Of a DNA stretch of 27,108 nt, positions 2,966 to 15,200 are shown in pieces (the stretch's first letter is position 1; each line of letters begins with the position of its first letter). The position numbers and the translations under genes are program-made. Below the pieces are notes generated by a model. It made no database searches. It saw nothing but the letters and a program-made list of their open reading frames with translations, and was not told where the DNA came from. Origin of the DNA: a virus; the IMG/VR virus record IMGVR_UViG_3300016457_001426, positions 1 to 27,108 of that record. One strand, written 5' to 3'.

Positions 2966-2967
2966 TT

Positions 2968-3432
2968 ATGGAAGTGAATCTTTCTGCCGAGGAGTTGAAA
3001 AAAAGAATAAAATCTTTCATTAAAGAAAAACCTATAGGTCTTAAATGGGTTTCCGAGATTAAGAGAGAGAATCCAAAAGAGATTTTAATCAACGGGTTTC
3101 CAAAAAAAGTTTTAGACAATTTGGATAAATATCCTACTTTGAAAAATCATCCTCCCAATTTCCATGTAGTAGATATTAAGACGTTTCCAAACGGCAAGAT
3201 GCAAATCGAAGGGATTATTAGAGATGGAAAAGAGAAGACGAAAGAATATCAGGCTTTTGGAATTTTGATTCCCTCAGACAAAGAATTATTTGAACTTGAA
3301 AAAAAGCAATTCAAGAAGGGGAAACTCAAAGAGGTCGCAGAAAGAACTTTGAAATTTCATCGCTTAGAGGATTATTGGAATGATTTATCTCAAAAGATTA
3401 AGAAAAAACAAATAAATATAAAAAATCATTAA
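2968..3432 (+). CDS. Small basic protein of unknown function
   Basis: 154 residues, strongly basic, with Lys-rich helices at both ends and a central beta segment (FHVVDIKTFPNGKMQIEGII). It starts 2 bp after the preceding stop, in the recurring TAA-TT-ATG junction, with no ribosome-binding site. I recognise no family. Its place between the fibre and the terminase genes suggests a virion assembly or DNA-contact role, but nothing in the sequence proves that. Confidence 0.65.
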   Translation: MEVNLSAEELKKRIKSFIKEKPIGLKWVSEIKRENPKEILINGFPKKVLDNLDKYPTLKNHPPNFHVVDIKTFPNGKMQIEGIIRDGKEKTKEYQAFGILIPSDKELFELEKKQFKKGKLKEVAERTLKFHRLEDYWNDLSQKIKKKQINIKNH

Positions 3433-3952: not shown

Positions 3953-4366
3953 ATGGGTGAAGAGAAAAAAGCTGAAAAACCTAAAATAAACAGGAAGAAA
4001 TTCAAAAGCCCGGAAGAATTGCAGAGAAAAATTGATAAGTATTTTGAAGATTGTAAGAAGAATAAAGAGCCTGTTACCATCACAGGGCTAGCACTCGCTT
4101 TAGATATGAGCTCTCGGCAAGATTTATTGAACTATTCTTCAAAACCAGGATATGAAGACTTCTTTGACATCGTAAAAAAAGCCAAATTAAGGGTTGAAAA
4201 TGAGATTGAAAAGGCCGTTAGAAAATCTAGTCGCGCAGGAGACATTTTCATCCTAAAGAATTTAGGATGGTCTGACAGGCAGGATGTTGCGCTTGTTCTC
4301 GATGAGAAAGTATTTCTTAACGTGAACAAGCCATTTAAACATGGTCTCCCGAAAAGTAAACGTTAA
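3953..4366 (+). CDS. terS: Terminase small subunit
   Basis: 137 residues from the ATG at 3953. That start has the TTAATT context of the late genes, and a TTG at 3944 is less likely. The product should recognise viral DNA and hand it to the large terminase. The evidence is the HTH-like N-terminal region (SPEELQRKIDKYFEDCKKN, then VTITGLALALDMSSRQDLLNY), the conserved-looking middle (FFDIVKKAKLRVENEIEKAV), and the ending G-D-I-F-I-L-K-N-L-G-W, which is the hallmark of Terminase_6-like small subunits where K-N-x-G-W-x-D follows. The gene overlaps the large terminase start by 26 bp, the usual coupling of the pair. Confidence 0.85.
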   Translation: MGEEKKAEKPKINRKKFKSPEELQRKIDKYFEDCKKNKEPVTITGLALALDMSSRQDLLNYSSKPGYEDFFDIVKKAKLRVENEIEKAVRKSSRAGDIFILKNLGWSDRQDVALVLDEKVFLNVNKPFKHGLPKSKR

Positions 4367-6563
4367 TTTCTTTGAAAAGCAATACGAGGCATACGAGTTT
4401 AAGACTCAGTTTTGCCTCGTTTGCGCGGGTGTTCAATGTATTTCTGAAGACGAATTTGTCTATACTCCAAAAGGCATCATTCAAGTTAAAGATGTGAAAA
4501 ATGGAGATGAAATATTAGGAGGCAAGGTCAGTAATGTTTATCAGTTTAAAGATGATATCTATGAGGTTCATTTCAATAATGGAATAAAGATAAAAACTAA
4601 CTTAGAGCATCCATTTTATTGTAAAAATAAAGGATGGATACGGTTAAAGGATATTAAAGCCAAGAAAGATAAAGTCTTTTTCTATTCTGTCGATAAGAAG
4701 AATGTAATAGAGCGTCCAATTAAATCTGCCAAATTGCTTGGCTATCTTTGCAGCGATGGCTACGTTAGCGGAGAAGGGCAGAGTCTAAAGTTTACCAACA
4801 CCAATTTCCATTTCATCGATGAAGTCAGAAGATTGAGCAAAGCTTTTCCAGATATCAAACCACATCTCTATAAAAAAGGTAAAGGTTGGGATTTACTGCT
4901 AACTACATATCATGGAAGTCGAAAGAATTCTCTCAAAGATTATATCAAAGAATTAAAAATTACTAAAGATAGTTTTGGCAAGATAGTAGAAGGTGATAAG
5001 AATTCTTTAATTGACTTTTTACAAGGATTCTTTAATGGAGATGGATATTTAACTCTTTATCAAAATCGCCGAAATAGAAAAGATATTTATCTCATAGGTT
5101 TTTGCATCGGGACTAGTAAGAGAAAAGCTTATGAAATGCAGTACATTCTTTGGAAATTAGGCATCAGATCTCACATCAGGGAAGAATCATATAAGAAATC
5201 TCAGAAATATTTTTACAGGGTTGTTGTTGATAGAAATTCATCTGAAAAACTTCTTCATCTACTAGATTGGAGCAAATATCCACTCAAATTCTATAAAGCA
5301 TCTTTAATAAAGACAATAAAAGCTAGAAATAATAAGGAATGGCTTTCAGTCTCTAGCATTAAAAAAATAGGAAAAGGAATAGTAAAAGGTTGGAAAACGA
5401 CAACTCACGAGATTATCAGTTATTGCGGAATGAAAACTCACAACAGCGGTAAAACTTATTTAGGTTCTGTTTGGGTTGTTAAGAAATTTAAAACTCTTGA
5501 TCAATGCACGGGAGCAATTATTGCTCCAACTTACAAAATTCTTCAGCAGTCAACCTTGCAGAAATTTTTCTCTTTATTTCCGATTTTAAGACTAGGTTAC
5601 AAAGAACAAAAGGGAGAAATTGAAATAAGTCCTGTTAAGAAAATTTTCGTTAGATCAGCAGATAATCCATTAAGTCTTGAAGGAATGTCTCTGGATTTCG
5701 CTTGGCTTGATGAAGCAGGAATGATGCCTAGATTAGTTTGGGATGTTATAAGGTCAAGGGTTTCAATGACAGGCGGGCAAGTTTTGTTAACAACAACCCC
5801 CTACGGTATAAACTGGCTGTATTATGATTTCTATCTTCCATGGCTAAATAAACAAGATCCTTCTCTTTCTTTCTTTACTTGGAAATCTATTGATAATCCA
5901 AAATTCAACAAAAAATTTTTTGAATCAGAAAGAAAAAGGATGAGCGAAAAAGAATTTAGAAGAAGGTATTGCGGTGAATTTCAAAAGATGGAAGGATTAG
6001 TTTATGATCTTCCAGAGAGTCAAATTATTGATCCAAAAGAAATTAATGATGCTACCTATGTTTGCGGAGTAGATTGGGGTTATAAAAATCCTTCTGCTAT
6101 TTTAGTTCTAGCAATAACTCAAAATGAAATTTATGCTGTTGATGAATGGAAGGAAAGCGGAAAAACAACTCCAGAAATAATTAATATTCTAAAGGCTCTC
6201 ATCTCTCGCTATAATATCAAACATGTTTTTCCAGATCCAGCAGAACCTGATAGGATAAAGGAATTAGATCTAAGCGGGATTAAATCTGAGAAAGTTAGCA
6301 AAGATCTCAAAGGAGGAATTTCTTTTATTCAACATTTGATAAAAGAAAGGAAATTATTCATTTTCAAGAATTGCGTGAATTTAATTGATGAAATGAACTC
6401 TTATCACTATCCAGAGAAACTTGATGCTTATCCAGATATCCCTGTAAAACTAAATGACCATTTATTGGATTGCTTAAGATATGCTTTATATTCTTATAAT
6501 TTAAATCTAAAAAGTTCGATTAATGAAAAAGTAACTGATGAGATAATTTGCGGGAATTTTTGA
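4341..6563 (+). CDS. terL: Terminase large subunit with intein in Walker A
   Basis: 740 residues, of which 33-368 are an intein; the spliced protein would be 404 residues, a normal TerL length. This is the motor that pumps DNA into the head and cuts it. Extein features are the Walker A motif GVQ-SGKT, rebuilt only after splicing (residues 30-32 and 369-372), Walker B in LDFAWLDEAGMM, the coupling stretch LLTTTPYG, and an RNase H-like nuclease with D in GVDWGYKNPS, D in FPDPAEPDR and DHLLDCLRYALY. The small terminase gene lies immediately upstream and overlaps it. The late operon ends here, before a large hairpin at 6568. Certain as a terminase; activity depends on splicing. Confidence 0.96.
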   Translation: MVSRKVNVNFFEKQYEAYEFKTQFCLVCAGVQCISEDEFVYTPKGIIQVKDVKNGDEILGGKVSNVYQFKDDIYEVHFNNGIKIKTNLEHPFYCKNKGWIRLKDIKAKKDKVFFYSVDKKNVIERPIKSAKLLGYLCSDGYVSGEGQSLKFTNTNFHFIDEVRRLSKAFPDIKPHLYKKGKGWDLLLTTYHGSRKNSLKDYIKELKITKDSFGKIVEGDKNSLIDFLQGFFNGDGYLTLYQNRRNRKDIYLIGFCIGTSKRKAYEMQYILWKLGIRSHIREESYKKSQKYFYRVVVDRNSSEKLLHLLDWSKYPLKFYKASLIKTIKARNNKEWLSVSSIKKIGKGIVKGWKTTTHEIISYCGMKTHNSGKTYLGSVWVVKKFKTLDQCTGAIIAPTYKILQQSTLQKFFSLFPILRLGYKEQKGEIEISPVKKIFVRSADNPLSLEGMSLDFAWLDEAGMMPRLVWDVIRSRVSMTGGQVLLTTTPYGINWLYYDFYLPWLNKQDPSLSFFTWKSIDNPKFNKKFFESERKRMSEKEFRRRYCGEFQKMEGLVYDLPESQIIDPKEINDATYVCGVDWGYKNPSAILVLAITQNEIYAVDEWKESGKTTPEIINILKALISRYNIKHVFPDPAEPDRIKELDLSGIKSEKVSKDLKGGISFIQHLIKERKLFIFKNCVNLIDEMNSYHYPEKLDAYPDIPVKLNDHLLDCLRYALYSYNLNLKSSINEKVTDEIICGNF
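4437..5444 (+). other. Intein with LAGLIDADG endonuclease domain
   Basis: 336 codons in frame inside the terminase gene. It begins with Cys33 (C-I-S-E-D-E-F-V), has block B TNLEHPFYC with the catalytic-type His90, and two LAGLIDADG helices (LLGYLCSDGY at 132-141, FLQGFFNGDG at 226-235). It ends MKTHN followed by Ser369 as the +1 residue. All the residues needed for protein splicing (C1, block B His, terminal HN, +1 Ser) are visible. Both LAGLIDADG motifs keep an acidic residue, so homing activity may be intact. Confidence 0.93.
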
Positions 6564-6567
6564 TAAG

Positions 6568-6635
6568 AGCGAACCCATAATTTCGGGTGGAATTTGTTCA
6601 ATTCCACACGCTTCGCTCCAAAATTAGGGTTCGCT
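6568..6635 (+). terminator. Nested hairpin at convergent operon ends
   Basis: AGCGAACCC (6568-6576) pairs with GGGTTCGCT (6627-6635), extended by AATTT/AAATT. Inside it GTGGAATT (6587-6594) pairs with AATTCCAC (6600-6607) around a TGTTC loop. It begins 5 nt after the terminase stop, between two convergent operons. No T-tract follows, so it may be an RNA 3'-end protector or a DNA site rather than a classical terminator. Confidence 0.6.
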
Positions 6636-6637
6636 GT

Positions 6638-6697
6638 TAAACTTAACGGAAGCAACTGCATTCATGATAAACTTAACGGGAGCTACCGCTTCCACCC
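6638..6697. repeat. Two 30-bp direct repeats
   Basis: TAAACTTAACGG occurs at 6638-6649 and again at 6668-6679. Similarity continues imperfectly after it (AAGCAACTGC against GAGCTACCGC), giving two tandem units of 30 bp. Non-coding. They could be protein-binding iterons or a recombination site. Confidence 0.6.
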
Positions 6698-6755
6698 ATC
6701 TCACCAAATTTTATTAAAGCGTATCTCTTATTTGCCTAATCAGATTTGGTGAGAT
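6698..6755. repeat. 12-bp perfect inverted repeat
   Basis: ATCTCACCAAAT (6698-6709) and ATTTGGTGAGAT (6744-6755) are perfect complements around a 34-nt AT-rich spacer. This follows the direct repeats and lies 21 bp beyond the end of the minus-strand operon (stop at 6776). It may act as a 3' hairpin for that operon or as an operator or attachment site. The sequence alone does not decide. Confidence 0.65.
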
Positions 6756-6775
6756 GCCTCCGTCAATTGTCGTAA

Positions 6776-6973
6776 TTAAGATTTCCACTTCTTTCTATAT
6801 TCCTCAAAAGAATTTCTCTCCCAAGCATCCATTAGATCTACAAACCTTTCAGGATTTATTTCGCATAATCTACTCATAGCATCAATGGTTTTTTGGTCTC
6901 CAGATTTTACTTTCTCAAGAATAATTTCTAAATTCTCCTCAACATATCCCCAAGTTAAAACCAATTCAACCAT
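6776..6973 (-). CDS. Small helical protein, third gene of minus operon
   Basis: 65 residues from the ATG at 6973, chosen because GGGAGAG lies just upstream; an in-frame ATG at 7000 would add nine residues. All-alpha in appearance, with a Trp-rich acidic/basic mix (VELVLTWGYVEENLEIILEK, FVDLMDAWERNSFEEYRKKW). No known domain. It overlaps the 3' end of the ATPase gene by 19 bp, so it is probably translationally coupled and may partner the ATPase. Confidence 0.6.
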   Translation of the reverse strand: MVELVLTWGYVEENLEIILEKVKSGDQKTIDAMSRLCEINPERFVDLMDAWERNSFEEYRKKWKS

Positions 6974-8091
6974 TTCTCTCCCTTCTTTGTTAAAAACCAC
7001 TTCAATAACCTTTTTTCTGAATCCGCTTCATAAAAATCTAGCAAACCTAATTGAGCCAAGCAATACAACTCAGACTTAACCGTCTTCCAACCCAATTTCA
7101 AACTGTTAGCAATCTGATTGATTGTTAATTCAGTGGAAGGATCTAATTCGCCTTCCTTTGTGCACAAGGTTTTAAACATTCTGAATATTTTATATCTCTT
7201 CTCCTCAATGCAACTATATGAAATCCTCTTTATTAATTCTTTTCCTCTCTCTAAATCCCCAGAAAGCATCAAATAACTTTTCAGCATCTTCTTCAGCATT
7301 TTAAAAATTCTATCAGGATCTTCTGGACTGGTAAATCCAATTGGCTCTCCAGAATAAGCATCAACTTTTATCTCGCTTCTAAAAATGCTCACAAATTCTG
7401 TTAAATCTCTCAAATATTTCAGTGTCTCTAAATCTAATTTAGGAACGCTTTCAAATTTATTAACTTCAAAGAACATCTTCATAAGATTTTTATATTGCTC
7501 AACAACATAACTAGTTTCTCTCTCCTCTAACAAATAATCCAAATTTTTCTCAACCCAATAATCAACCCTAAAAGATATGTGCCTGGTCCCAAGGGTTTGA
7601 AATAAAGTAATTTGATTCTCTATGTCTGGAGTAGAACAAGTTAAAAGGCTAACGAATAAATTTCTATATTCTACCCTCTTTCCAGAGCCGAATTTTTGGA
7701 TCGCGTACCCATCCCATAAATTTCTGAATTGAGACCATATCTCTGATTTCTCTTGAGGATTCAAAGTCAAAAATTGAGAGAAATCAGGAATTAAAACAAT
7801 TTTTCCATCCATTTTCAAAACTTCATCAGTTTCACTCTTCAATCCTGTTATCAAAGTTCTAGAGGTTAATTTTGTCAAAAGGTAAACATCCTCAAAATCT
7901 TCAAATCCTTTTAAGTGCAAGGTTTTTCCGAAAGAGGAAGGCGCTACTACAAATAGCCAAACAGGATCTCTTTTTTCTAACTTGTGAGAGAGATAATGAG
8001 CCATCAAGATTTCTATCAAGCTGCTATCATTCACGCTGAACAATTTCTTATATATTCTTAACACCTCTCCAAAATCAATCAATTTTTGCAT
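6955..8091 (-). CDS. AAA-like P-loop ATPase with C-terminal winged helix
   Basis: 378 residues. Walker A is APSSFGKT (about residues 50-57, matching [AG]x4GK[ST]), Walker B is KIVLIPDFSQ, and LLTCSTPD looks like a sensor-1 strand. G-T-R-H-I-S-F-R-V-D carries candidate arginine-finger residues. The C-terminus has a winged-helix segment (TINQIANSLKLGWKTVKSEL, then LAQLGLLDFYE) like those of replication initiators and plasmid or virus helicases. The best reading is a viral replication or initiation ATPase acting on the adjacent control region. It overlaps the RHH gene upstream by ATG/TGA coupling. Which AAA clade it belongs to cannot be settled by eye; a transcription-control ATPase is possible. 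Confidence 0.75.
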   Translation of the reverse strand: MQKLIDFGEVLRIYKKLFSVNDSSLIEILMAHYLSHKLEKRDPVWLFVVAPSSFGKTLHLKGFEDFEDVYLLTKLTSRTLITGLKSETDEVLKMDGKIVLIPDFSQFLTLNPQEKSEIWSQFRNLWDGYAIQKFGSGKRVEYRNLFVSLLTCSTPDIENQITLFQTLGTRHISFRVDYWVEKNLDYLLEERETSYVVEQYKNLMKMFFEVNKFESVPKLDLETLKYLRDLTEFVSIFRSEIKVDAYSGEPIGFTSPEDPDRIFKMLKKMLKSYLMLSGDLERGKELIKRISYSCIEEKRYKIFRMFKTLCTKEGELDPSTELTINQIANSLKLGWKTVKSELYCLAQLGLLDFYEADSEKRLLKWFLTKKGEKWLNWF

Positions 8092-8212
8092 TCTTCTTCC
8101 AAAACCAGATCAAATAAACAATTACATCGTTATAAGAGTTTATCCAAGGATAGTTTTCTTTGATAACAGAAATAATTTCAGAAAGCTGATCCTTAGTTTC
8201 TTTCTTTAGCAT
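8075..8212 (-). CDS. Small RHH-type DNA-binding protein
   Basis: 45 residues (MLKKETKDQLSEI ... INSYNDVIVYLIWFWKKN). The pattern 'K-K-E-T-K-D-Q-L' strand and helix, a turn, then S-Y-N-D-V-I plus a hydrophobic helix is the ribbon-helix-helix plan seen in archaeal and viral repressors. Its stop overlaps the ATPase start, so the two are co-translated. A TATA element lies about 40 nt upstream. It is a likely autorepressor of this operon or of the neighbouring control region. The short length is normal for RHH proteins. Confidence 0.65.
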   Translation of the reverse strand: MLKKETKDQLSEIISVIKENYPWINSYNDVIVYLIWFWKKNAKID

Positions 8213-8237
8213 TACAGGAGAAAACCTCTTTTCCATA

Positions 8238-8600
8238 AATATTATAAAAAAATATATAAGTTTTTAAAGGCCTTTTCAGCGAAATTTTGCCCCCAAAATT
8301 CTAAGGGTATTCGGCGATTCTCCGCATTCTATTAGGGGCAGGTCAAAACTTCAATCTTTATAACACTGTAATAATGGGTTATATAATAAAATATTATATA
8401 GTGATTAATTTTCGTGTAACACGATTTATATACTCGAGAATATATTCACCCTTAAAATTTTAAGAGTATAAGCCAAATAACCGCAAAATAGAGTTTTTCT
8501 TTTTTATTTTTATTATTAATAAAGTTTTAACAAAAAATATATAAGGGTATATAAAAATTTTTTAACGATATATACCTTTATAATTTTGGTGGGGAAGAGT
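8238..8600. other. AT-rich intergenic control region with dyads
   Basis: No gene is visible. The stretch has several perfect dyads: TATATAATA-AAA-TATTATATA (8380-8400), TCGTGT-A-ACACGA (8412-8424), CTTAAAATTTTAAG (8451-8464), and GGTATATA (8546-8553) facing TATATACC (8569-8576). The last pair also forms back-to-back TATA boxes. AT-rich DNA beside a palindromic GC-rich region and an ATPase gene is the usual setting of an origin of replication, but this is inference. Confidence 0.5.
8252..8261 (-). promoter_or_regulatory. TATA box for the RHH/ATPase operon
   Basis: On the minus strand this reads CTTATATATT. Start of transcription about 25 nt downstream would fall near 8230, leaving a short leader that contains a small hairpin (GAGG-TTTT-CCTC) before the ATG at 8212. 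Confidence 0.5.
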
Positions 8601-8717
8601 TCATTTCTTTTCAGTAATAAAATCACTTATTTTTACAGAATTGCCCTCTTGAAAGAATTCATTCAATTTCCTGTTCTTAAAAACTTCTCTCCAATTTACT
8701 GCCATAACTAATAACAT
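8601..8717 (-). CDS. Possible small protein, low confidence
   Basis: 38 residues from the ATG at 8717, or 34 from the ATG at 8705 (MAVNWREVFKNRKLNEFFQE...). Charged and helical. It lies just outside the left arm of the giant palindrome, on the strand that leads away from it, which mirrors the 44-residue gene at the right arm. No convincing ribosome-binding site or family, so it may be chance. Confidence 0.3.
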   Translation of the reverse strand: MLLVMAVNWREVFKNRKLNEFFQEGNSVKISDFITEKK

Positions 8718-8765
8718 CTTTAATATAAATAAAGAACTCTTCCTTCGTTAATAGTCGGTGTCCAT

Positions 8766-8975
8766 TTTCTCCCTCCTGCGTTTGGCGCCACTGCCAACTC
8801 CCTCCTGCTTGCGCCTGCTTCCCGCTGGGGACGACGCTGTTCCAGAGCGGACGGGTCGTCGTCCTCATCCGCCCCTCCTGTGTGCCTTCGCCGCCTCGCT
8901 GGCTCGCGCCGTCTCGCAAACGGCGCTGGCGCCTCATCTCCTGCCTTGCGCCTTCGTTTTCCTTCCAAGGAAAAC
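8766..8975 (-). ncRNA. Left-arm structured leader RNA (divergent copy)
   Basis: Read on the minus strand it starts at a GTTTTCCTT-CC-AAGGAAAAC hairpin (8956-8975) and passes through a GCGCCGT/ACGGCGC hairpin, GGATGAGG, a GTCCGCTCT/CAGCGTCGTCC segment and GGGAGTTGGCAG. It ends at GGAGGGAGAAAATGG, as the right arm does. In this copy the ATG opens only a five-codon frame (M-D-T-D-Y-stop), so the gene it once led appears lost or shifted. Confidence 0.5.
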
Positions 8976-9029
8976 ATAACTGTGTAACGGGAGGGTTACG
9001 GTCTTTTGCGGGCTTTCACTTGCGCTTCT

Positions 9030-9074
9030 CGAAAATTTGGACAGCAAATGTGTTTAGGTGAGTCCAAATTTTCG
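9030..9074. repeat. Central hairpin of the giant palindrome
   Basis: CGAAAATTTGGAC (9030-9042) and GTCCAAATTTTCG (9062-9074) are perfect complements around a 19-nt loop. This is the symmetry centre of the whole region and its only AT-rich part, suited to strand opening, protein binding or divergent transcription starts. Confidence 0.85.
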
Positions 9075-9175
9075 GAATGCTCGTGAAACCGCCCTGTGAA
9101 TATCTTGTGCTTCCCGCAAAATCCCGTCCGTTGCGATGTCTTCTCACGACACCACTCCCGTTTCCTGTGTATTGA

Positions 9176-9398
9176 GTTTTCCTTTCCAGGAAAACTTCGG
9201 CGCTTCGGCGTCGATGAGGCTGACACAGCGCCTTATTGCATCGACGGGCGCGTCGCCAGCTGCGGCAGGCGAAGCCCCGAGAGGGGCTAGGATGAGGCCT
9301 CCTCCCGACGTCCGCTCTTCCACAAGCGTCGTCCCATCCCCGCGTCCAGCAGGCGCGTCGCGGGAGTTGGCAGATAGGCGCCACTTGGAGGGGAGAAA
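9176..9398 (+). ncRNA. Right-arm structured GC-rich leader RNA
   Basis: The element starts at a GTTTTCCT-TTCC-AGGAAAAC hairpin (9176-9195). It shares ordered blocks with the left arm while paired segments differ: a GCGCC/GGCGC hairpin here replaces GCGCCGT/ACGGCGC there, and AGCCCC-GAGA-GGGGCT is an extra hairpin here. Conserved unpaired blocks with changing stems indicate selection on RNA structure. It ends in GGAGGGGAGAAAATG, the start of the next gene. No known RNA family was recognised. Confidence 0.55.
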
Positions 9399-9533
9399 AT
9401 GGCGGTGTACGTCGGCGAAATCCGGGTAAAGTGCAGTGAATTAGATGAAATTGAACGGCTAGTGAAATCCAAAGTTCCTTTGGATAACTGGCCAAAGCGG
9501 TTAATCAGAATCTTATCAGTGATGTTAGATTAA
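9399..9533 (+). CDS. Small accessory protein, paralogue 1
   Basis: 44 residues (MAVYVGEIRVKCSELDEIER...), starting at the ATG directly after GGAGGGGAGAAA. Its C-terminal part (V-x-C-x-x-L-D-E-I-E-R-L-V-K ... P-L-D-N-W-P-K-R-L-I-R-I-L) follows the same pattern as the genes at 9641 and 10144, so the three look like diverged copies. No known domain; predicted strand plus two helices. A T-tract follows the stop. Probably an early regulatory or host-takeover protein, but no function can be read. Confidence 0.6.
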   Translation: MAVYVGEIRVKCSELDEIERLVKSKVPLDNWPKRLIRILSVMLD

Positions 9534-9558
9534 AATTTTTGTTTTGTTTTTAGTTTTT

Positions 9559-9640
9559 ACGATAGAAGCCAGGCAGTTAGCCTGAGCTTCCGTCCCGTGG
9601 GGGTGAAAAGCCCTCTTGGGGTTTTGAAAGGTGATGTACC
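9559..9640 (+). ncRNA. Structured leader, copy 1 (CGATAG hairpin type)
   Basis: It begins after a T-tract with ACGATAG, then a hairpin GAAGC-CAGGC / GCCTG-a-GCTTC (9565-9590). The following CCGTCCC / GGGGG / GCCC / TTGGGG segment forms nested G-C pairs. It ends in GGTGATG before the ATG at 9641. It shares the TTTTT-[AC]CGATAG-hairpin entry with the elements at 10051 and 10707 but lacks their pseudoknot. Confidence 0.5.
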
Positions 9641-9775
9641 ATGAAATTCTTGTGCTACGAAGATGTTTGCATTCCTTGCACCATTGAAGATATCGAGACT
9701 GTAAGAATGAAACTCAGAAGAGCTATCGATCTTCTCCCAAGAGAAGTGGAGATTGCAAAGATTTTGCGATTATAA
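9641..9775 (+). CDS. Small Cys-containing protein, paralogue 2
   Basis: 44 residues. AAAGGTGATG, a full archaeal ribosome-binding site, precedes the ATG. The N-terminus carries C5, C10 and C13 (FLCYEDVCIPC), perhaps metal binding. The C-terminus I-E-D-I-E-T-V-R-M-K-L ... L-P-R-E-V-E-I-A-K-I-L matches the gene at 10144 (L-D-E-V-R-R-K-L ... D-R-E-V-E-I-A-R-I-F). Co-transcribed with the membrane protein 10 nt downstream. Function unknown. Confidence 0.65.
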   Translation: MKFLCYEDVCIPCTIEDIETVRMKLRRAIDLLPREVEIAKILRL

Positions 9776-9785
9776 GGTGGTGAAA

Positions 9786-10031
9786 ATGAGATTCGAAGAT
9801 GTGTTGTTTTGGCTCCTAACAGGATTGACAGTGTTCGTGATTGTAGCAGGCATTTCCTTGTCTTCCAATGAATCCCCGATCGAAGAGATCGAAGAAAGTG
9901 TTCAGGAAGATGCTTATTCAGTGACCGTTCAAGTCTTGCCAGAAGATCAGATTCCTGAGAACGCAACTTGCTATCCGGTCGAAGGCGAATACATGGTTTA
10001 TTGCTCGGATGGTAAGTTGTATATAGATTGA
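9786..10031 (+). CDS. Small single-pass membrane protein
   Basis: 81 residues from the ATG at 9786, chosen because GGTGGTG precedes it; an upstream in-frame TTG at 9753 overlaps the previous gene and is unlikely. Residues 5-25 (DVLFWLLTGLTVFVIVAGIS) form one transmembrane helix. They are followed by an acidic linker (ESPIEEIEESVQED) and a small beta domain with two cysteines (NATCYPVEGEYMVYCSDGK) that may form a disulphide outside the cell. No family recognised. Possibly superinfection exclusion or envelope-directed, but this is a guess from the topology. Confidence 0.65.
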   Translation: MRFEDVLFWLLTGLTVFVIVAGISLSSNESPIEEIEESVQEDAYSVTVQVLPEDQIPENATCYPVEGEYMVYCSDGKLYID

Positions 10032-10050
10032 TTTTCCATTTTAAGTTTTT

Positions 10051-10128
10051 CCGATAGAGGTTCAGCAAGTCTGAACCTCCGACCGCCGAATGGGCTTCCC
10101 TGGCGGTATAGAAGTTAGTTGGAAGCCC
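10051..10128 (+). ncRNA. Hairpin plus H-type pseudoknot RNA element, copy 2
   Basis: After a T-tract and CCGATAG comes a perfect 9-bp hairpin GAGGTTCAG/CTGAACCTC (10057-10079). Then CCGCC (10083-10087) pairs with GGCGG (10102-10106), while GGGCTTCC in its loop (10092-10099) pairs with GGAAGCCC (10121-10128), which makes an H-type pseudoknot. The segment 10098-10122 is identical to 10753-10777 in the second copy. It leads into the gene at 10144. No known riboswitch class was recognised. Confidence 0.75.
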
Positions 10129-10143
10129 AAGAAAGAAGTTAGA

Positions 10144-10326
10144 ATGTTCGAAGAATACGATAGATGGTTGGAAGAAGTCACAGAAGCAAAGATAGAAAGA
10201 AATCCAGATGGAACTTATGCGGTTTTCGTTCCCAAAGACGAATTGGATGAAGTAAGAAGAAAATTGAAAAAGAACCTCCCCCTTACAGATAGGGAGGTCG
10301 AGATAGCAAGAATCTTTGAACTATGA
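10144..10326 (+). CDS. Small protein, paralogue 3
   Basis: 60 residues from the ATG at 10144. An in-frame ATG at 10090 lies inside the pseudoknot and is rejected as a start. The C-terminal module (DELDEVRRKLKKNL ... DREVEIARIFEL) is shared with the gene at 9641 and more weakly with 9399. The N-terminal half (FEEYDRWLEEVTEAKIER, then GTYAVFVPKDEL) is its own. Unlike its neighbours it has no GGTGAT site, only AGAAAGAAG. Its stop overlaps the SWIM protein start (ATGA), so the two are coupled. Confidence 0.65.
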   Translation: MFEEYDRWLEEVTEAKIERNPDGTYAVFVPKDELDEVRRKLKKNLPLTDREVEIARIFEL

Positions 10327-10679
10327 AGATCTACAATTCGGTTAATCCGGAATTCCGGGTTAACCTCCCTCGGGTTCAGTTCTTCAGCGATAATCCAGTG
10401 TTCAATCAGAAAGTTTTAGAAAGACTTGCTAGAAGCCTGCTCCTAAAAGGTAGGCCCAGGAGGATTATTTCAACTCCTGGGTCAGATACTTATTATGTCA
10501 GAGGTTCGAGAGGTATCAGATATGAAGTTGTTCTAGGAAAGGCAGAAAGAAGAGGTTACTGCACTTGCCCAGACTTCCAGAGAAATCTGAGAATTGCAGA
10601 AGAAAAAGGATATGACAGCGTTCTTCCATGCAAGCATATATTGAAGATTTTGGCATATAGAAGAGCAACAAGAAAATAA
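10323..10679 (+). CDS. SWIM zinc-finger protein
   Basis: 118 residues. The C-terminal part has the SWIM signature C-x-C-x(n)-C-x-H: YCTCPDFQ ... LPCKHILKIL, preceded by the usual strand (YYVRGSRGIRYEVVLGKAERRG). The long spacer between CxC and CxH is typical of viral and plasmid SWIM proteins. The N-terminus (YNSVNPEFRVNL, VLERLARSLLLKG) resembles the short helical lead common in such proteins. SWIM domains bind nucleic acid or protein. Here it is coupled to paralogue 3 in the early module and followed by a T-tract. Confidence 0.85.
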   Translation: MKIYNSVNPEFRVNLPRVQFFSDNPVFNQKVLERLARSLLLKGRPRRIISTPGSDTYYVRGSRGIRYEVVLGKAERRGYCTCPDFQRNLRIAEEKGYDSVLPCKHILKILAYRRATRK

Positions 10680-10706
10680 GTTTTTAAGTTTTTTAAGTTT
10701 TTTTTC

Positions 10707-10783
10707 CGATAGGGAGTTCAGGTTTGAACTTCCCGGACCGCCGAGTGGGTTGCCCTGGCGGTATAGAAGTTAGTTGGCGACCC
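10707..10783 (+). ncRNA. Hairpin plus H-type pseudoknot RNA element, copy 3
   Basis: Same order as at 10051: T-tract, CCGATAG, hairpin GGGAGTTCA/TGAACTTCCC (10712-10734), CCGCC (10738-10742) with GGCGG (10757-10761), and GGGTTGCC (10747-10754) with GGCGACCC (10776-10783). Compared with the other copy, two stem-2 pairs change compensatorily (C-G to U-A, U-A to G-C) and one becomes U-G. GGTGATG of the next gene follows 11 nt later. Confidence 0.75.
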
Positions 10784-10804
10784 TTAAGAAGAAAGGTGAT
10801 GTAG

Positions 10805-10924
10805 ATGCCTAAATGTGCGCTTTGTGGTTATGAGATCAGTAAGGAAGAAGCGGAAAAGTATAATGGTTTGTGTGAGCAGTGCTGGATCGGTGAGGTAGAG
10901 AATCCAGAACACAGGGTTTGGTAG
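10805..10924 (+). CDS. 39-residue zinc-ribbon protein
   Basis: Starts at the ATG after AAAGGTGATGTAG. The sequence MPKCALCGYEISKEEAEKY followed by GLCEQCW gives two CxxC knuckles (C4/C7 and C23/C26) around a short helix-capable linker, a minimal zinc ribbon. It is followed one base later by the next gene. Probably a nucleic-acid or protein adaptor of the early module. Real by its strong ribosome-binding site and clear Cys pattern. Confidence 0.8.
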   Translation: MPKCALCGYEISKEEAEKYNGLCEQCWIGEVENPEHRVW

Positions 10925-10925
10925 T

Positions 10926-11264
10926 ATGATAAGCATAATAACTCTTACGGGAAAAATTGTAAAAGTAGATGAGATCGAAAGAGTAAGCACTGTTTCAGCA
11001 GATTTGATCAAGAAAAACAATCAGCAACTCATCGAACAATTGCAAGCCGTAGTTAAGTCAGATCACTATAATAAAGTAACAGTCAAAATAAATGAAGAAA
11101 CAAAACTCGTATGGGTAAATGATGAAGAAGCAAAGAGAATTGAAAAGATGATAAAGGAAGAGTATGAAGAGATCATTAAGCAAGCAATCGCTCAACAAAA
11201 CAGAATGATAGATGGCAGTGATGAAAGAGCGTTTCGGAAAGGTTTAGAGTTTGATTGGAGATGA
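10926..11264 (+). CDS. Small protein, unknown
   Basis: 112 residues. An N-terminal beta segment (ISIITLTGKIVKVDEIERVS) is followed by helices, a short beta hairpin (KVTVKINEETKLVWVNDEEA) and a long Glu/Lys-rich helix (KMIKEEYEEIIKQAIAQQNR). No motif. It follows the zinc-ribbon gene by 1 nt and overlaps the next gene, so it belongs to the same transcript led by the pseudoknot element. Confidence 0.65.
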   Translation: MISIITLTGKIVKVDEIERVSTVSADLIKKNNQQLIEQLQAVVKSDHYNKVTVKINEETKLVWVNDEEAKRIEKMIKEEYEEIIKQAIAQQNRMIDGSDERAFRKGLEFDWR

Positions 11265-11557
11265 CAAATATGAAATACATAGAAGTTTTCGAGTTAATGA
11301 AGAAAAAAGACAAAAGAATCTTAGAAGACAAAGATTTGTTCAGAAAATCGCAGCTTATAGATAAAATAATTGATCTAGTCATCAGAGAAAAAATAGCAAG
11401 CGAAGACAGAATTAGAAGGATGTTAGATAAAAAACAGAATTCAGCATACGAAAATAATAAAAGATATGCAGAACTCTACGAAATTGAGAAAGAAGTTTGT
11501 AGTGTTGCTAAAATGTTAGACAGTATCGACGAAATTGTATCTTCTTTTTCTTTTTAG
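11261..11557 (+). CDS. Small coiled-coil protein, unknown
   Basis: 98 residues from the ATG that overlaps the previous stop (ATGA at 11261); an in-frame ATG at 11270 is the alternative. Almost entirely helical and highly charged (KKDKRILEDKDLFRKSQLID, IASEDRIRRMLDKKQ), with one Cys near the end. It ends beside a T-tract (TCTTTTTCTTTTTAGTTTTTT). No family recognised. Confidence 0.65.
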   Translation: MTNMKYIEVFELMKKKDKRILEDKDLFRKSQLIDKIIDLVIREKIASEDRIRRMLDKKQNSAYENNKRYAELYEIEKEVCSVAKMLDSIDEIVSSFSF

Positions 11558-11568
11558 TTTTTTCCAAT

Positions 11569-11683
11569 CCCAAGAAGTCTCAGGCTTCTTGGGGGGAAGC
11601 GACTCACCGAACCTATGATTTTGGTTTGAAGATTGAAGATTGAAGACCAAAGGAGGTTCACTTTCCTTAAAAGGTGATGTATC
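11569..11683 (+). ncRNA. Structured leader with possible SD-sequestering stem
   Basis: A perfect 9-bp hairpin CCCAAGAAG/CTTCTTGGG (11569-11593) is followed by AGCGACTCACCGA (11598-11610). Then comes a two-part stem GAACCT/AGGTTC (11609-11614, 11654-11659) with TTTGGT/ACCAAA inside it (11620-11625, 11646-11651). TCACC (11604-11608) is complementary to GGTGA (11673-11677), the ribosome-binding site of the next gene, and would close the hairpin and hide it. The 13-nt motif recurs at 12191. Confidence 0.6.
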
Positions 11684-12070
11684 ATGTCTCAGGAAATAAA
11701 TATTTTCGCCAATAACACTTCAAAAATCAAAAAGATTTTAAGACAAAGATTTCCCAAAGCGACTTTCAGAATTAGAACTCAAAGTTTCTCAGGAGGTAAA
11801 TCGATAGATATTTATACAGATCTATTTAGAGAAATTGATCACAATAGGAAAAGAGAACTTGAACTCAAGTTACAGAATCAAGGATTAGACAGTGAAGAAT
11901 ACAAAGAACTTCAAAGAACAGAAAGAGACATTGCTTGGAACAGATCATTAGAAGGAAATATCAAGAAACTGCTAAAAGATTTCTGGTCAGTAGATTATGA
12001 TGAAATCACAGGCGAAGTTTTAAGTGGTGGTAATTGCTATTTATTTGTAGAACCTCTTTCAAGATTTTAA
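11684..12070 (+). CDS. LPD29-like small viral protein
   Basis: 128 residues. The N-terminal stretch SKIKKILRQRFPKATFRIRT ... SFSGGKSIDIYTD matches the 'large polyvalent protein' domain pattern found in phage and plasmid proteins (K..L...FP...F.V....YSGG.SI.V). That domain otherwise occurs as a module of anti-defence or transfer proteins injected with DNA. Here it stands alone with a helical insertion (KRELELKLQNQGLD) and a final strand (GGNCYLFVEPLSRF). The ribosome-binding site is GGTGATGTATC. Family call from motif memory; function unknown. Confidence 0.5.
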   Translation: MSQEINIFANNTSKIKKILRQRFPKATFRIRTQSFSGGKSIDIYTDLFREIDHNRKRELELKLQNQGLDSEEYKELQRTERDIAWNRSLEGNIKKLLKDFWSVDYDEITGEVLSGGNCYLFVEPLSRF

Positions 12071-12116
12071 TTTCACCCCCCTCTAGGTGGCGCCTGTCTT
12101 TCATTTTGTTCTTATC

Positions 12117-12159
12117 GGTCGCCCTGTTATCTTTGTTATTGGTTATCTATGTGGCGACC
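12117..12159. repeat. 7-bp inverted repeat beside a TATA box
   Basis: GGTCGCC (12117-12123) faces GGCGACC (12153-12159) across 29 nt. The right arm touches the TATA box at 12160, a position suited to a repressor or activator site, or to an end-of-transcript hairpin of the gene upstream. Confidence 0.55.
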
Positions 12160-12170
12160 TTATATAAATA
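12160..12170 (+). promoter_or_regulatory. TATA promoter of the 12191 leader
   Basis: TTATATAAATA is a near-consensus archaeal TATA box. A start about 25 nt from its centre falls close to 12190, exactly where the AGCGACTCACCGA leader begins. It also fits a leaderless start at the ATG at 12187. Confidence 0.65.
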
Positions 12171-12186
12171 CTCTTATTGTATAATT

Positions 12187-12258
12187 ATGCAGCGACTCAC
12201 CGAGCAATTGAAAGGATGGTTAATAGTCCTTGATGCTCTCTTGTTAAAAAAAAGGTGA
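12187..12258 (+). CDS. Possible 23-residue leader peptide (uORF)
   Basis: The ATG at 12187 is 22 nt after a TATA box and has the TAATTATG context of the leaderless late genes. The frame MQRLTEQLKGWLIVLDALLL ends with TGA at 12256-12258, inside GGTGATG of the next gene. If translated, the ribosome would unfold the leader and stop on the downstream ribosome-binding site. The same bases are also explained as structured RNA, so this is a low-confidence alternative. Confidence 0.35.
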   Translation: MQRLTEQLKGWLIVLDALLLKKR

Positions 12259-12264
12259 TGAAAT
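12191..12264 (+). ncRNA. Leader with AGCGACTCACCGA motif, second copy
   Basis: AGCGACTCACCGA (12191-12203) is followed by a hairpin GAGCA/TGCTC (12202-12206, 12234-12238) with AAGGA/TCCTT inside it, then an A-rich stretch and GGTGATG (12254-12260). TCACC (12197-12201) can pair with GGTGA (12254-12258). Apart from the shared 13-mer, the hairpin sequence differs completely from the copy at 11598 while the arrangement is the same. Confidence 0.6.
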
Positions 12265-12597
12265 ATGGATGAATCAACTTCGGCCTCAGCCATATACGGA
12301 GGAACTTTCCTCACAGGCAAGATGGCAAAGGAGATAGGTCTGGAAGGAGTTCAGAAAATTGCGAAAGTTGAGAAGATTTCCTTTACTAGAAAAGGAGAGG
12401 ATATCGAGCAGACAAAGATTGGCTTAACTTTTGAGAAATTTCCAGAATTTCAGTTATTGCTCAATAAGACAAATGCGAAAGTTATGATTACGAAATTTGG
12501 AGATGATTTTTCTAAATGGGAAGGCAAAGAGATCAAAGTTGTTATCAAAGAGACAGAAGTTTCAGGAGTTCCAACACCTGTTATTAGATTAGAATGA
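12265..12597 (+). CDS. Conserved-type small phage protein (OB-like)
   Basis: 110 residues. The central motif L-L-N-K-T-N-A-K-V-M-I-T-K-F-G-D-D-F-S-K-W followed by EGKEIKVVIKE and a final VIRL strand resembles a widespread phage family with LNKTN...GDD..WxGK, usually encoded near recombination or replication genes and thought to have an OB-like beta fold. The N-terminus (SASAIYGGTFLTGKMAKEIG) is Ser/Gly-rich. Its ribosome-binding site is GGTGATG inside the leader described above. Coupled by ATGA to the next gene. Confidence 0.6.
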   Translation: MDESTSASAIYGGTFLTGKMAKEIGLEGVQKIAKVEKISFTRKGEDIEQTKIGLTFEKFPEFQLLLNKTNAKVMITKFGDDFSKWEGKEIKVVIKETEVSGVPTPVIRLE

Positions 12598-12713
12598 ATG
12601 AAGAATATTCCAAGAAATTGGTGGAAGAGGCTATTAAAATTGTCAGGGAGTTACAGGATTATCAGAAAGAGGATAAGAAGAAAATTTTAAGGATTGCAAC
12701 AACTTTGCTTTGA
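12594..12713 (+). CDS. 39-residue helical protein
   Basis: Starts at an ATG overlapping the previous stop. The sequence MNEEYSKKLVEEAIKIVREL then QDYQKEDKKKILRIATTLL is two amphipathic helices, like many very small phage DNA-replication accessories of the 'L..L....R.RIL...' kind. A T-tract (TTTTCTTTTTTTTTT) follows, so the transcript of this gene pair probably ends here. Real by coupling; function unknown. Confidence 0.55.
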   Translation: MNEEYSKKLVEEAIKIVRELQDYQKEDKKKILRIATTLL

Positions 12714-12750
12714 TTCTGTTTTCTTTTTTTTTTATTATCCCCTAACAGCC

Positions 12751-12926
12751 CGCCATAGGAGGGCGTGTGGAAAGGTGTCCGGGTCGGCACACCTATGGCG
12801 AAAAAATCTGCGGTGCTCTCCTGGAATGCAAGGTTTCACACGCTCCTATGGAGAGAAGCCTTGCAAAGCAGGGTGTGGAACTGCTACCACCGTCATCGCA
12901 GAGGGCTGGGGGAGAAGGTGAAAGAA
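12751..12926 (+). ncRNA. GC-rich multibranch structured RNA/leader
   Basis: The 5' domain is closed by CGCCATAGG (12751-12759) with CCTATGGCG (12792-12800). The 3' domain is closed by CTGCGGTG (12808-12815) with CACC...CGCAG (12888-12901) and holds two arms: TGCAAGG/CCTTGCA (12827-12833, 12859-12865) capped by CTCC-TAT-GGAG, and AGCAG/CTGCT (12867-12871, 12881-12885). It lies between a T-tract and a small gene with GGTGAAAGAA. Three overlapping ORFs cross it in different frames, none plausible as protein. No known family was recognised. Confidence 0.6.
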
Positions 12927-13058
12927 ATGATAAAAACAAGGCTATTGAATTGGAAAATAATTGAAAAAAGAACAGGAATTAAAATAGGACAAGTTATGGA
13001 TCTTCATGTCGTATGCGATAAAACAGGCGATTGGTTGATAATCGAATATCAAGAGTGA
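12927..13058 (+). CDS. 43-residue protein, unknown
   Basis: Starts at the ATG after GGTGAAAGAA, not at the upstream GTG/ATG codons inside the structured RNA, where the composition is unlike protein. The sequence (IKTRLLNWKIIEKRTGIKIG, then VMDLHVVCDKTGDWLIIEYQ) suggests one helix and a three-stranded sheet. No family recognised. It is followed within 6 nt by another tiny gene. Confidence 0.6.
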   Translation: MIKTRLLNWKIIEKRTGIKIGQVMDLHVVCDKTGDWLIIEYQE

Positions 13059-13064
13059 GAGAAA

Positions 13065-13151
13065 ATGAGTGAATTTGAAGTTTGGGAAGCTTATAGACAG
13101 TTGATGGGCTTCTCTCCAAGTTGGTTGAAGACTTATTTTATAGAAAGTTAA
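13065..13151 (+). CDS. 28-residue peptide, tentative
   Basis: Small ORF (MSEFEVWEAYRQLMGF...). It starts 6 nt after the preceding stop with GAGAGAAA before it and ends 4 nt before the next ATG. Acidic then aromatic helix, no motif. Packing with its neighbours is the only support. Confidence 0.4.
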   Translation: MSEFEVWEAYRQLMGFSPSWLKTYFIES

Positions 13152-13155
13152 GAAT

Positions 13156-13362
13156 ATGAGCAGAAAATTATCAACAGATGATATTGTTGCTTTGATTGAC
13201 ATTTTGGATTCAAGATGCATTCAATTTGATATATTTGTTGAGCCGAATCTTTTCATTGATATTGAGAAAATTAAGAATTATTGTAAAAGGAATAATATTT
13301 CAATCAGATTACTAGAAGACAAGACAACAATTCCTATTAAATTATTGTATATTAGAAAATGA
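13156..13362 (+). CDS. Small protein, unknown
   Basis: 68 residues. N-terminal helices (STDDIVALIDILDSRC), then FDIFVEPNLFIDIEKIKNYC and ISIRLLED, an alternating alpha/beta pattern. Two Cys. Its stop overlaps the next start by ATGA. No ribosome-binding site, so it belongs with the coupled genes rather than the GGTGAT set. No family recognised. Confidence 0.55.
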   Translation: MSRKLSTDDIVALIDILDSRCIQFDIFVEPNLFIDIEKIKNYCKRNNISIRLLEDKTTIPIKLLYIRK

Positions 13363-13814
13363 CTGATAGGAAATTTTTTATTTTTCTTTTGTTTTGTTTT
13401 TCTATTTTATTCATATCTTTATTTTACAAATCCTTTAATTCTCCAATCCTTTATTTTCCTGATTACAATCAGTTGAATTATTTTATCAATTTAGATGATA
13501 TTGATCAATATTTATATGATGATGAATCTTTTGATTGTACTGAATTTTCCAATCTATTTGTTAAGAGATTTGCTGATAAAGGATTCTTTTCTTGTACTGC
13601 TGAATTAAATCTTTTATCAAATAATAAATCTTTTGGCCATATCATTGTTGCTGTTTATACCTTAGATAAAGGATTATTTTATGTTGAGCCTCAGACTGAT
13701 ATGATTATTTCTGATAAGGATTTAATCCTTAATACGAATTATTGCAATTTGGTTTCTTGGTCGTGCAATTGGACTATTAAAAAAGTTAGTTCTTGTTTTG
13801 GAGTTTCTTATTAA
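13359..13814 (+). CDS. Membrane-anchored transglutaminase-like protein
   Basis: 151 residues. Residues 5-24 (KFFIFLLFCFSILFISLFYK) are an N-terminal membrane anchor or uncleaved signal. The outside part has the papain/transglutaminase-like order: a Cys in F-D-C-T-E-F-S at the start of a helix, a His in S-F-G-H-I-I-V-A-V-Y, and an acidic residue in F-Y-V-E-P-Q-T-D. Additional Cys near the C-terminus may form disulphides. In viruses of this type such a protein could act on the host envelope at entry or release. It lies just before the repeat array and the late promoter. The fold is inferred from the Cys-His-Glu/Asp order. Confidence 0.55.
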   Translation: MTDRKFFIFLLFCFSILFISLFYKSFNSPILYFPDYNQLNYFINLDDIDQYLYDDESFDCTEFSNLFVKRFADKGFFSCTAELNLLSNNKSFGHIIVAVYTLDKGLFYVEPQTDMIISDKDLILNTNYCNLVSWSCNWTIKKVSSCFGVSY

Positions 13815-13866
13815 TTATTCCTTATTTTTTTTTTTTAAAATTATATCTTATCTACTCCCCCCCTGT

Positions 13867-13990
13867 CTTATTCCTTTTACCCTTATTCCCTTTACCCTTA
13901 TAAGTCCTTTACCCCTACTCCCTTTACTCTTAGTTCCTTTAACCTTATAAGTCCTTTACCCTTATTCCCTTTACCCTTATAAGTCCTCAC
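13867..13990. repeat. Pyrimidine-rich 15-17 bp tandem repeats
   Basis: About eight degenerate units of CTTATTCCCTTTACC, some carrying the insert that makes CTTATAAGTCC (CTTATAAG at 13897, 13944 and 13976). The strand is almost free of G. The array sits immediately upstream of the late promoter, with a last degenerate box (TTTATAAG) at 13992-13999. Units are too short and unspaced for CRISPR. Confidence 0.85.
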
Positions 13991-14020
13991 CTTTATAAGC
14001 CAATAAGTCATCCTCACAAT

Positions 14021-14035
14021 CCTTTATAAATATAT
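14021..14035 (+). promoter_or_regulatory. Late operon TATA promoter before portal
   Basis: CCTTTATAAATATAT gives a strong archaeal TATA box. The portal ATG is only about 18 nt from its centre, so the transcript would be leaderless, unless TTTATAAG at 13992 is used to give a roughly 20-nt leader. Confidence 0.65.
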
Positions 14036-14045
14036 CCTATATATT

Positions 14046-15200
14046 ATGGCTCTAAAGGATTTCATTTCGAAGCTGAAAAATTTTGGCAAAGTCGAGGAGA
14101 ATTTCAAAACTCTTATTTCTCTAGGTCCAAATAAAGAACGATTTTCTTACGGCAATTATGAAAAACCTGATTATCAAAGATTGGAGAATGCATACAGAGA
14201 TTTTGCTGTTTTTGCTTCCTTAAACCTTTTCTCTGCTTCTGTTTATGGTTCAGGTTTTACTTTAAAAGGAGATGAAAGAGTTTTAGAATTATGCGAACCA
14301 ATTCAACATATTTCATCTTTTAAACCCGCTTGCATTGATGGAATAAAGAATGCTTTGGTCTTTGGAAATGGATTTAATGAAATCTTATGGGAGGGAAAAG
14401 AGATAGTCGGATTTAAAGTTGTTGATACTAAAACAATAGAGCCAAAATGGGATGAAAAAGGAAATATCATTTCTTATGTCCAAGAAGCACCTAATGGAAA
14501 ATCTATTCCTTTAGATAAACATGATTTGATATTTTACAGATTTTACAGGAATTCGGATAATGTTCATGGCATAGGATTTGTTGAACCTATTGTTAGACTA
14601 TTAGAAATAAGAAATGAAATGGTTGAAGCGATTGGAGATATTTTCCGTTATTTAGCCCTTCCTCCAATTCATGTTGTTAAAGAAGGAGCAAAAACGAAAA
14701 AAGAACTGAAAGAAACAGAAGAAGCCTTAAAAGATTTTCACAGAAAACATTATTTTATATCATCTGAAAAATACAAATTCAATCTTTTAGAAGTCAAAAG
14801 GACTCTTCCTGATTTAACCAAAAATCTAGAGATGATTAATGATTATATTTCAACAGGCTTAAGAGTTCCCGCCAATTTCCTATCAGGCAGAGTTACTTAT
14901 TCAACAAAAGCAGCCTTTTTAGCCCTAAAAGAGTATTCCCAGGATGAAATTCAATACATAAGAGAAAAATTAGCAGCAATCCTAGAAGAACAATTATTTA
15001 AACCATTTTGCTTGAAGAATGGCATCCCAGAAAGAAAAGTCCCTCAGGTTTATTGGAAACCAGATCAAACAATAGATCCAAAGACTTCTTCTGAAATCCT
15101 GTTGAATAAAATAAAGGTTATCGGAACAGCAGTAGATTTGGACTTATTGGACAGAAGCGATGCCAAAGAATTAGTTAAATCTATTTTAGAAAAGATATAA
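14046..15200 (+). CDS. Portal protein
   Basis: 384 residues, the ring at the head vertex through which DNA passes. Features fitting phage portals are FASLNLFSASVYGSGFTLKG near the N-terminus; the clip/wing region (GIKNALVFGNGFNEILW, FKVVDTKTIEPKW, GKSIPLDKHDLIFYRF); a crown and stem region (HGIGFVEPIVRLLEIRNEMV); and a C-terminal TGLRVPANFLSG...KAAFLALKEYSQDEIQYIRE segment like SPP1/HK97-type portals. It is the first gene of the late operon and is followed by the maturation-protease polyprotein, the usual order. The terminase, its normal partner, is 7.5 kb upstream across the early region. Confidence 0.93.
   Translation: MALKDFISKLKNFGKVEENFKTLISLGPNKERFSYGNYEKPDYQRLENAYRDFAVFASLNLFSASVYGSGFTLKGDERVLELCEPIQHISSFKPACIDGIKNALVFGNGFNEILWEGKEIVGFKVVDTKTIEPKWDEKGNIISYVQEAPNGKSIPLDKHDLIFYRFYRNSDNVHGIGFVEPIVRLLEIRNEMVEAIGDIFRYLALPPIHVVKEGAKTKKELKETEEALKDFHRKHYFISSEKYKFNLLEVKRTLPDLTKNLEMINDYISTGLRVPANFLSGRVTYSTKAAFLALKEYSQDEIQYIREKLAAILEEQLFKPFCLKNGIPERKVPQVYWKPDQTIDPKTSSEILLNKIKVIGTAVDLDLLDRSDAKELVKSILEKI

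Follow-up and report, generated by a model that had tools for sequence, protein, structure and literature searches.

Organization of the locus and its viral setting

The window, that is the whole 27,108-nucleotide stretch that was analysed, carries the genes of a tailed virus, including those for the small and large terminase, the portal and an HK97-type capsid protein. The large terminase gene (4341-6563) is interrupted by a LAGLIDADG-type intein, while the relatives of this terminase align without it. For two adjacent proteins the nearest named virus was the archaeal virus ANMV-1 (E 9e-44 and 2e-23), and one of the two best matched PAPS-reductase models which we take to be of archaeal type. 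On these two grounds the host is probably an archaeon, and the contig looks like that of an archaeal tailed virus. A 7.5-kb module of early or replication type (6560-14046) separates terminase from portal in this virus, whereas in the terminase relatives the next gene follows within about 0.4 kb of the terminase.

To the left of the element described here is a set of leftward genes, a 378-aa protein (6955-8091) together with small frames, and to its right lies an early region that is read rightward. Walker-like motifs could be discerned by eye in the 378-aa protein, and its predicted structure had a pLDDT of 38. The original prediction was of a GC-rich giant palindrome, and this proved to be real. 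It is an imperfect inverted repeat of 641 bp with exact limits at 8762-9402, and when it was self-aligned with its reverse complement the arms gave a score of 185, compared with 32 +/- 5.5 and a maximum of 49 for 300 dinucleotide shuffles. As had also been claimed, GC content was far higher within the element (0.60) than in the 500 bp to its left (0.27) or right (0.42), and the CpG ratio was 1.11 as opposed to 0.60-0.69 in the remaining window. Each of the mirror-order blocks named beforehand was located in both arms (Table 1), and the perfect central hairpin proposed at 9030-9074 was found to be formed by a 13-bp stem and a 19-nt loop. Scanning of the contig gave no second comparable inverted repeat, and 8762-9402 is present there as a single copy.

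Table 1. Window coordinates of the inverted repeat, of its parts in the predicted minus-strand fold and of the flanking direct repeat
Feature	Coordinates	Strand	Evidence
Whole element, putative 641-nt rod-shaped RNA gene	8762-9402	minus	Fold, G.A-closed loops, purine-rich unpaired bases
5' arm of putative rod RNA, pairs with 8762-8990 over nearly its whole length	9160-9402	minus	Inverted repeat, alignment, fold
3' arm of putative rod RNA, pairs with 9160-9402	8762-8990	minus	Inverted repeat, alignment, fold
Branched rod tip: small hairpins 9133-9155 and 9091-9110, and stem to apical hairpin	8991-9159	minus	Fold
Apical hairpin, loop UCACCUAAACACAUUUGCU	9030-9074	minus	Inverted repeat, fold
GGA/GGA-loop segment, partner 8956-8975, flanking helices of 8 bp and 9 bp	9176-9195	minus	Inverted repeat, fold, alignment
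Segment with two GGA/GGA 3x3 loops, partner ~8817-8845	9318-9350	minus	Fold, alignment
Tandem GA/GA loops alternating with single G-C pairs, partner 8854-8863	9297-9306	minus	Fold
Mirror blocks CCATTTTCTCCC/GGGAGAAAATGG	8762-8773 and 9391-9402		
Mirror blocks CTGCCAACTCCC/GGGAGTTGGCAG	8791-8802 and 9362-9373		
Mirror blocks GTTTTCC-GGAAAAC	8956-8975 and 9176-9195		
CGGTGT, left direct-repeat copy, abuts element exactly, possible target-site duplication	8756-8761		
CGGTGT, right direct-repeat copy	9403-9408		

Predicted fold and differences between the arms

The minus strand of the element was predicted to fold into one rod of ~226 pairs (-368 kcal/mol, z -21.6 relative to shuffled sequence), with 9402/8762 at one end and, at the other, a branched tip bearing the 9030-9074 hairpin. 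In this fold it is the conserved blocks that form the stems, by pairing with their mirror counterparts, and the variable stretches between them are internal loops, so that the earlier description of conserved blocks with varying stems was mistaken. When folding was predicted at 75-85 C, the rod persisted and retained 216 and 202 pairs. The bases left unpaired in the minus-strand fold were A 86, G 53, C 25 and U 25 (74% purine). The whole plus strand also folded strongly (z -18.1), as did the minus strand when treated as DNA (z -18.6), and folding energy alone is therefore no proof of RNA. When single arms were folded separately, they were barely beyond shuffled sequence (z -1.2 and -1.8).

With respect to coding capacity, minus-strand frames of 76, 85, 86 and 159 aa appeared by eye to be chance frames. 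A 44-aa plus-strand frame (9399-9533) has a ribosome-binding-site-like sequence and its ATG (9399) within the closing stem of the rod, and a mirror-image site precedes a 5-codon frame at the other end; given the start signals of the 44-aa frame, the rod end could instead be constrained by translation. The apical loop includes UCACCU, the complement of the AGGTGA ribosome-binding sites of this virus, and pairing between the two was dropped as evidence because loop-to-genome pairing was no better than that of shuffled loops.

Arm-to-arm alignment revealed 38 mismatches and 91 gap columns. Transversions accounted for 35 of the mismatches, and at 32 of the 38 a purine was opposite a purine on the minus strand (A.G 15, G.A 8, A.A 6 and G.G 3). 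This direction was stable across five alignment settings and departed from an even three-class split with a binomial P of 1.4e-10. A DNA palindrome decaying neutrally after insertion is expected to accumulate mostly transitions, with no strand preference, and arm differences dominated by transversions and biased by strand thus make a decaying DNA repeat an unlikely source of the element. As the purines at the differing positions of both arms fall on the minus strand, it is this strand which would be the RNA strand. A purine-purine strand bias between palindrome arms may be of wider use as a single-sequence test to separate RNA selection from a DNA palindrome.

The internal loops of the predicted rod showed the same strand preference. 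In the minus-strand fold, eight of nine symmetric 2x2 or 3x3 internal loops had 5'-G...A-3' on both sides (GGA/GGA three times, GAA/GAA once and GA/GA four times), compared with none of nine in the plus-strand fold. Loops of the GGA/GGA, GAA/GAA and GGA/GGA type also emerged from an alignment by identity only, which uses no energy model. When 300 decayed palindromes were simulated with 5.5% substitutions and 5% indels per arm, each had at most one G.A-closed loop; the simulated palindromes were slightly less diverged than the real element, which makes the comparison approximate, but the gap is very large. The thermodynamic literature, as far as it is cited in PMC5393185, describes the 5'-G...A-3' orientation as the stable sheared form in RNA and GGA/GGA, GAA/GAA and GA/GA as a stable symmetric purine loop type. 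In the modelled fold, the eight loops are a signature of sheared G.A motifs. In the literature cited there, such internal loops constitute a known motif and not a family; here the motif would recur eight times in one rod.

A probable single large RNA and competing explanations

From the purine-purine mismatches, the rod fold and the recurrent G.A-closed loops, we consider it most likely, at a probability of roughly 0.68, that the palindrome is the gene for one large structured RNA of the minus strand, modelled as a single long rod. Leftward transcription from the minus strand would yield one large structured RNA folding end to end into a rod of ~226 bp with a branched tip, in which small internal loops rich in purines, most of them sheared G.A motifs, would connect GC-rich helices. 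This RNA would accumulate as a separate molecule, and the rigid rod could serve along its length as a docking surface for protein or RNA partners. Its most likely role would be that of a stable non-coding RNA which docks proteins or RNAs at the G.A motifs and acts as a scaffold or decoy in infection. No homologue and nothing similar was detected in the databases searched, and the predicted rod RNA may thus represent a viral non-coding RNA of a new kind. Upstream of 9402 no clear promoter could be identified for the minus strand, and the 6-bp direct repeat which flanks the element has no explanation if the element is an RNA gene.

Within the RNA reading, the main alternative, which we regard as possible but unlikely, is that the rod is a cis-acting leader, forming the 5' untranslated part of a leftward mRNA and controlling a replication-type gene such as that of the 378-aa P-loop protein. 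The rod does lie directly upstream of leftward genes (8702-6955), and several structured leaders are encoded on the other strand of the virus. However, a TATA element resembling a promoter of the next leftward gene is situated just beyond the rod at 8751-8722, which weakly favours a free RNA over a leader. Furthermore, no long open reading frame follows immediately after the rod, the ATG at its edge opening only the 5-codon frame.

A rather improbable explanation is a transposable element of the foldback (MITE-like) type, which would have entered the space between the divergent genes and duplicated CGGTGT at its target. Like MITEs and foldback elements, the palindrome has long terminal inverted repeats and an abutting 6-bp direct repeat that could be a target-site duplication. 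The inverted repeat stops exactly where the perfect direct repeat starts on both sides, a 6-bp match at this spacing being found at a frequency of 6e-4 of window positions, and the composition of the element is unlike that of its flanks in both GC and CpG ratio. The CGGTGT pair is what a transposon insertion leaves; from sequence, chance or a mobile RNA unit may each account for it. Unlike such elements, however, the palindrome is a single copy in the contig and its arms differ in a strand-biased and structure-preserving manner. Neither further copies in the viral, genome, phage and plasmid collections searched nor a related transposase were found, and exact-pattern scans of the viral and genome collections would miss diverged copies. 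As records very close to the window may have been hidden from the searches, the absence of copies is no proof. The six genome matches and eight viral matches which those scans returned were chance matches. By blastn no copies were detected in phages and plasmids, the sole plasmid match being to 30 bp of AT-rich flank. An ordinary foldback transposon is disfavoured by the strand-biased, transversion-dominated arm differences, which are the opposite of what neutral decay would give. The foldback and RNA readings are compatible and may both be true. In such a case the palindrome would be a mobile unit of structured RNA, the DNA copy of the rod having inserted with a 6-bp target duplication and its fold having been kept by selection; we consider this very improbable, and if true it would connect viroid-like RNAs with DNA viruses. 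Neither an empty nor an occupied site was found among the terminase relatives, which share essentially only the terminase with this virus.

The original prediction also listed a replication origin as a candidate, and an origin or other DNA structure acting as a single-stranded or cruciform hairpin is, in our estimate, improbable. Leftward genes switch to rightward at the element, the GC skew changes sign there, the element adjoins the protein with a Walker-like motif and the minus strand folds well as DNA; divergent genes alone would nevertheless produce the skew change, and apart from the position between leftward and rightward genes nothing positive was found for an origin. No initiator gene was recognised, the 378-aa neighbour being without a Pfam, PHROGs or NCBIfam match, and we know of no replication origin resembling a rod of 641 bp in which one strand carries G.A loops.

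As to the remaining proposals, the earlier preference for RNA was supported, but not in the form of two divergent structured RNA genes, for which there is very little chance. The arms are homologous in inverted orientation, as such a pair would require, yet each arm alone is unremarkable, which argues against two RNAs, and a single rod is predicted for the element as a whole (z -18 and -22 for the two strands). When read outward, moreover, the arms have purines in one and pyrimidines in the other at 32 of the 38 differing positions, and with this opposite bias two homologous divergent RNAs cannot share the same structure. Assembly is known to be error-prone at long inverted repeats, but a chimeric inverted join would give near-identical arms in a near-perfect palindrome, and this possibility is excluded by the strand-biased pattern of the arm differences.

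Relation to known RNAs and other structured regions

Searches with the Rfam 15 covariance models (GOLLD, ROOL, OLE, HEARO and all others) gave no match at the gathering score in the whole window. Below threshold, the 8200-10400 region had two unrelated matches (E 3-4), both outside the rod. No self-cleaving ribozyme of a known class was present among Rfam matches up to E 5, and there were no tRNA or tmRNA matches.

Provided that it is expressed, the RNA would represent a large non-coding RNA with a single rod, from a tailed virus whose host is probably an archaeon, and its simple architecture of a rod with G.A loops would complement the ornate GOLLD and ROOL RNAs of phages. To our knowledge, few large RNAs are known from archaeal tailed viruses. 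GOLLD, ROOL and OLE are large ornate structured non-coding RNAs, GOLLD and ROOL having been described from bacteria and phages and OLE, which has coaxial helices, measuring 577 nt in one species (Kretsch et al. 2025, PMC12286853). The putative RNA would resemble them as a large structured non-coding RNA, but they are multi-branched and defined by covariation whereas the element, from a virus with a probable archaeal host, has no match to their Rfam models and is predicted to form a single long rod that ends in a small branched tip. Viroids (200-400 nt) and Obelisks (about 1 kb), including those from hot springs, are rod-like with extensive self-pairing, and the hot-spring Obelisks are likewise without a ribozyme (PMC13096302). 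The likeness is that of a rod-like, self-paired RNA of similar or somewhat larger size than the element. In contrast to these circular RNA replicons, of which Obelisks encode Oblin, the element is part of the genome of a DNA virus, lacks a convincing open reading frame or ribozyme match, and has both its ends at the same end of the rod.

No relatives were retrieved with the 378-aa protein or the capsid protein as query. Twenty-seven terminase relatives were found, eleven of them at 45-58% identity, and none had a comparable rod. A high inverted-repeat score in one terminase relative (L011) was due to a tandem repeat inside a gene; at 2860-3205 the same sequence has a long array of a ~12-nt repeat (GAGTTCTTTGNG) inside a coding region. 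The same scan detected no rod in the ANMV-1 virus, in which a 1.15-kb region near the terminase without annotated genes (L063:13200-14349) folds extensively but not as a rod.

Further folded RNAs are predicted in the same virus, comprising a GC-rich, strongly folded plus-strand region at 12730-12925 (z -4.4), upstream of a gene and without an Rfam match, and three plus-strand leaders with z below -3. Two of the leaders are paralogous (10046-10135 and 10701-10790, z -3.7 and -3.3) and likely form an H-type pseudoknot in which CCGCC/GGCGG is interleaved with an 8-bp stem. At three positions of this stem the copies differ, and pairing is kept at all of them, at two through double changes. Both also have an identical 24-nt stretch, of which no copies were found elsewhere. 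The third leader (9554-9645, z -3.2) starts with the TTTTTMCGATAGA motif common to both pseudoknot leaders. Finally, 32-bp tandem repeats of the CCCTTTACCCTTATAAGTCC type occupy the intergenic region before the portal gene (13869-13994), and from their sequence these could be iterons or a promoter array.
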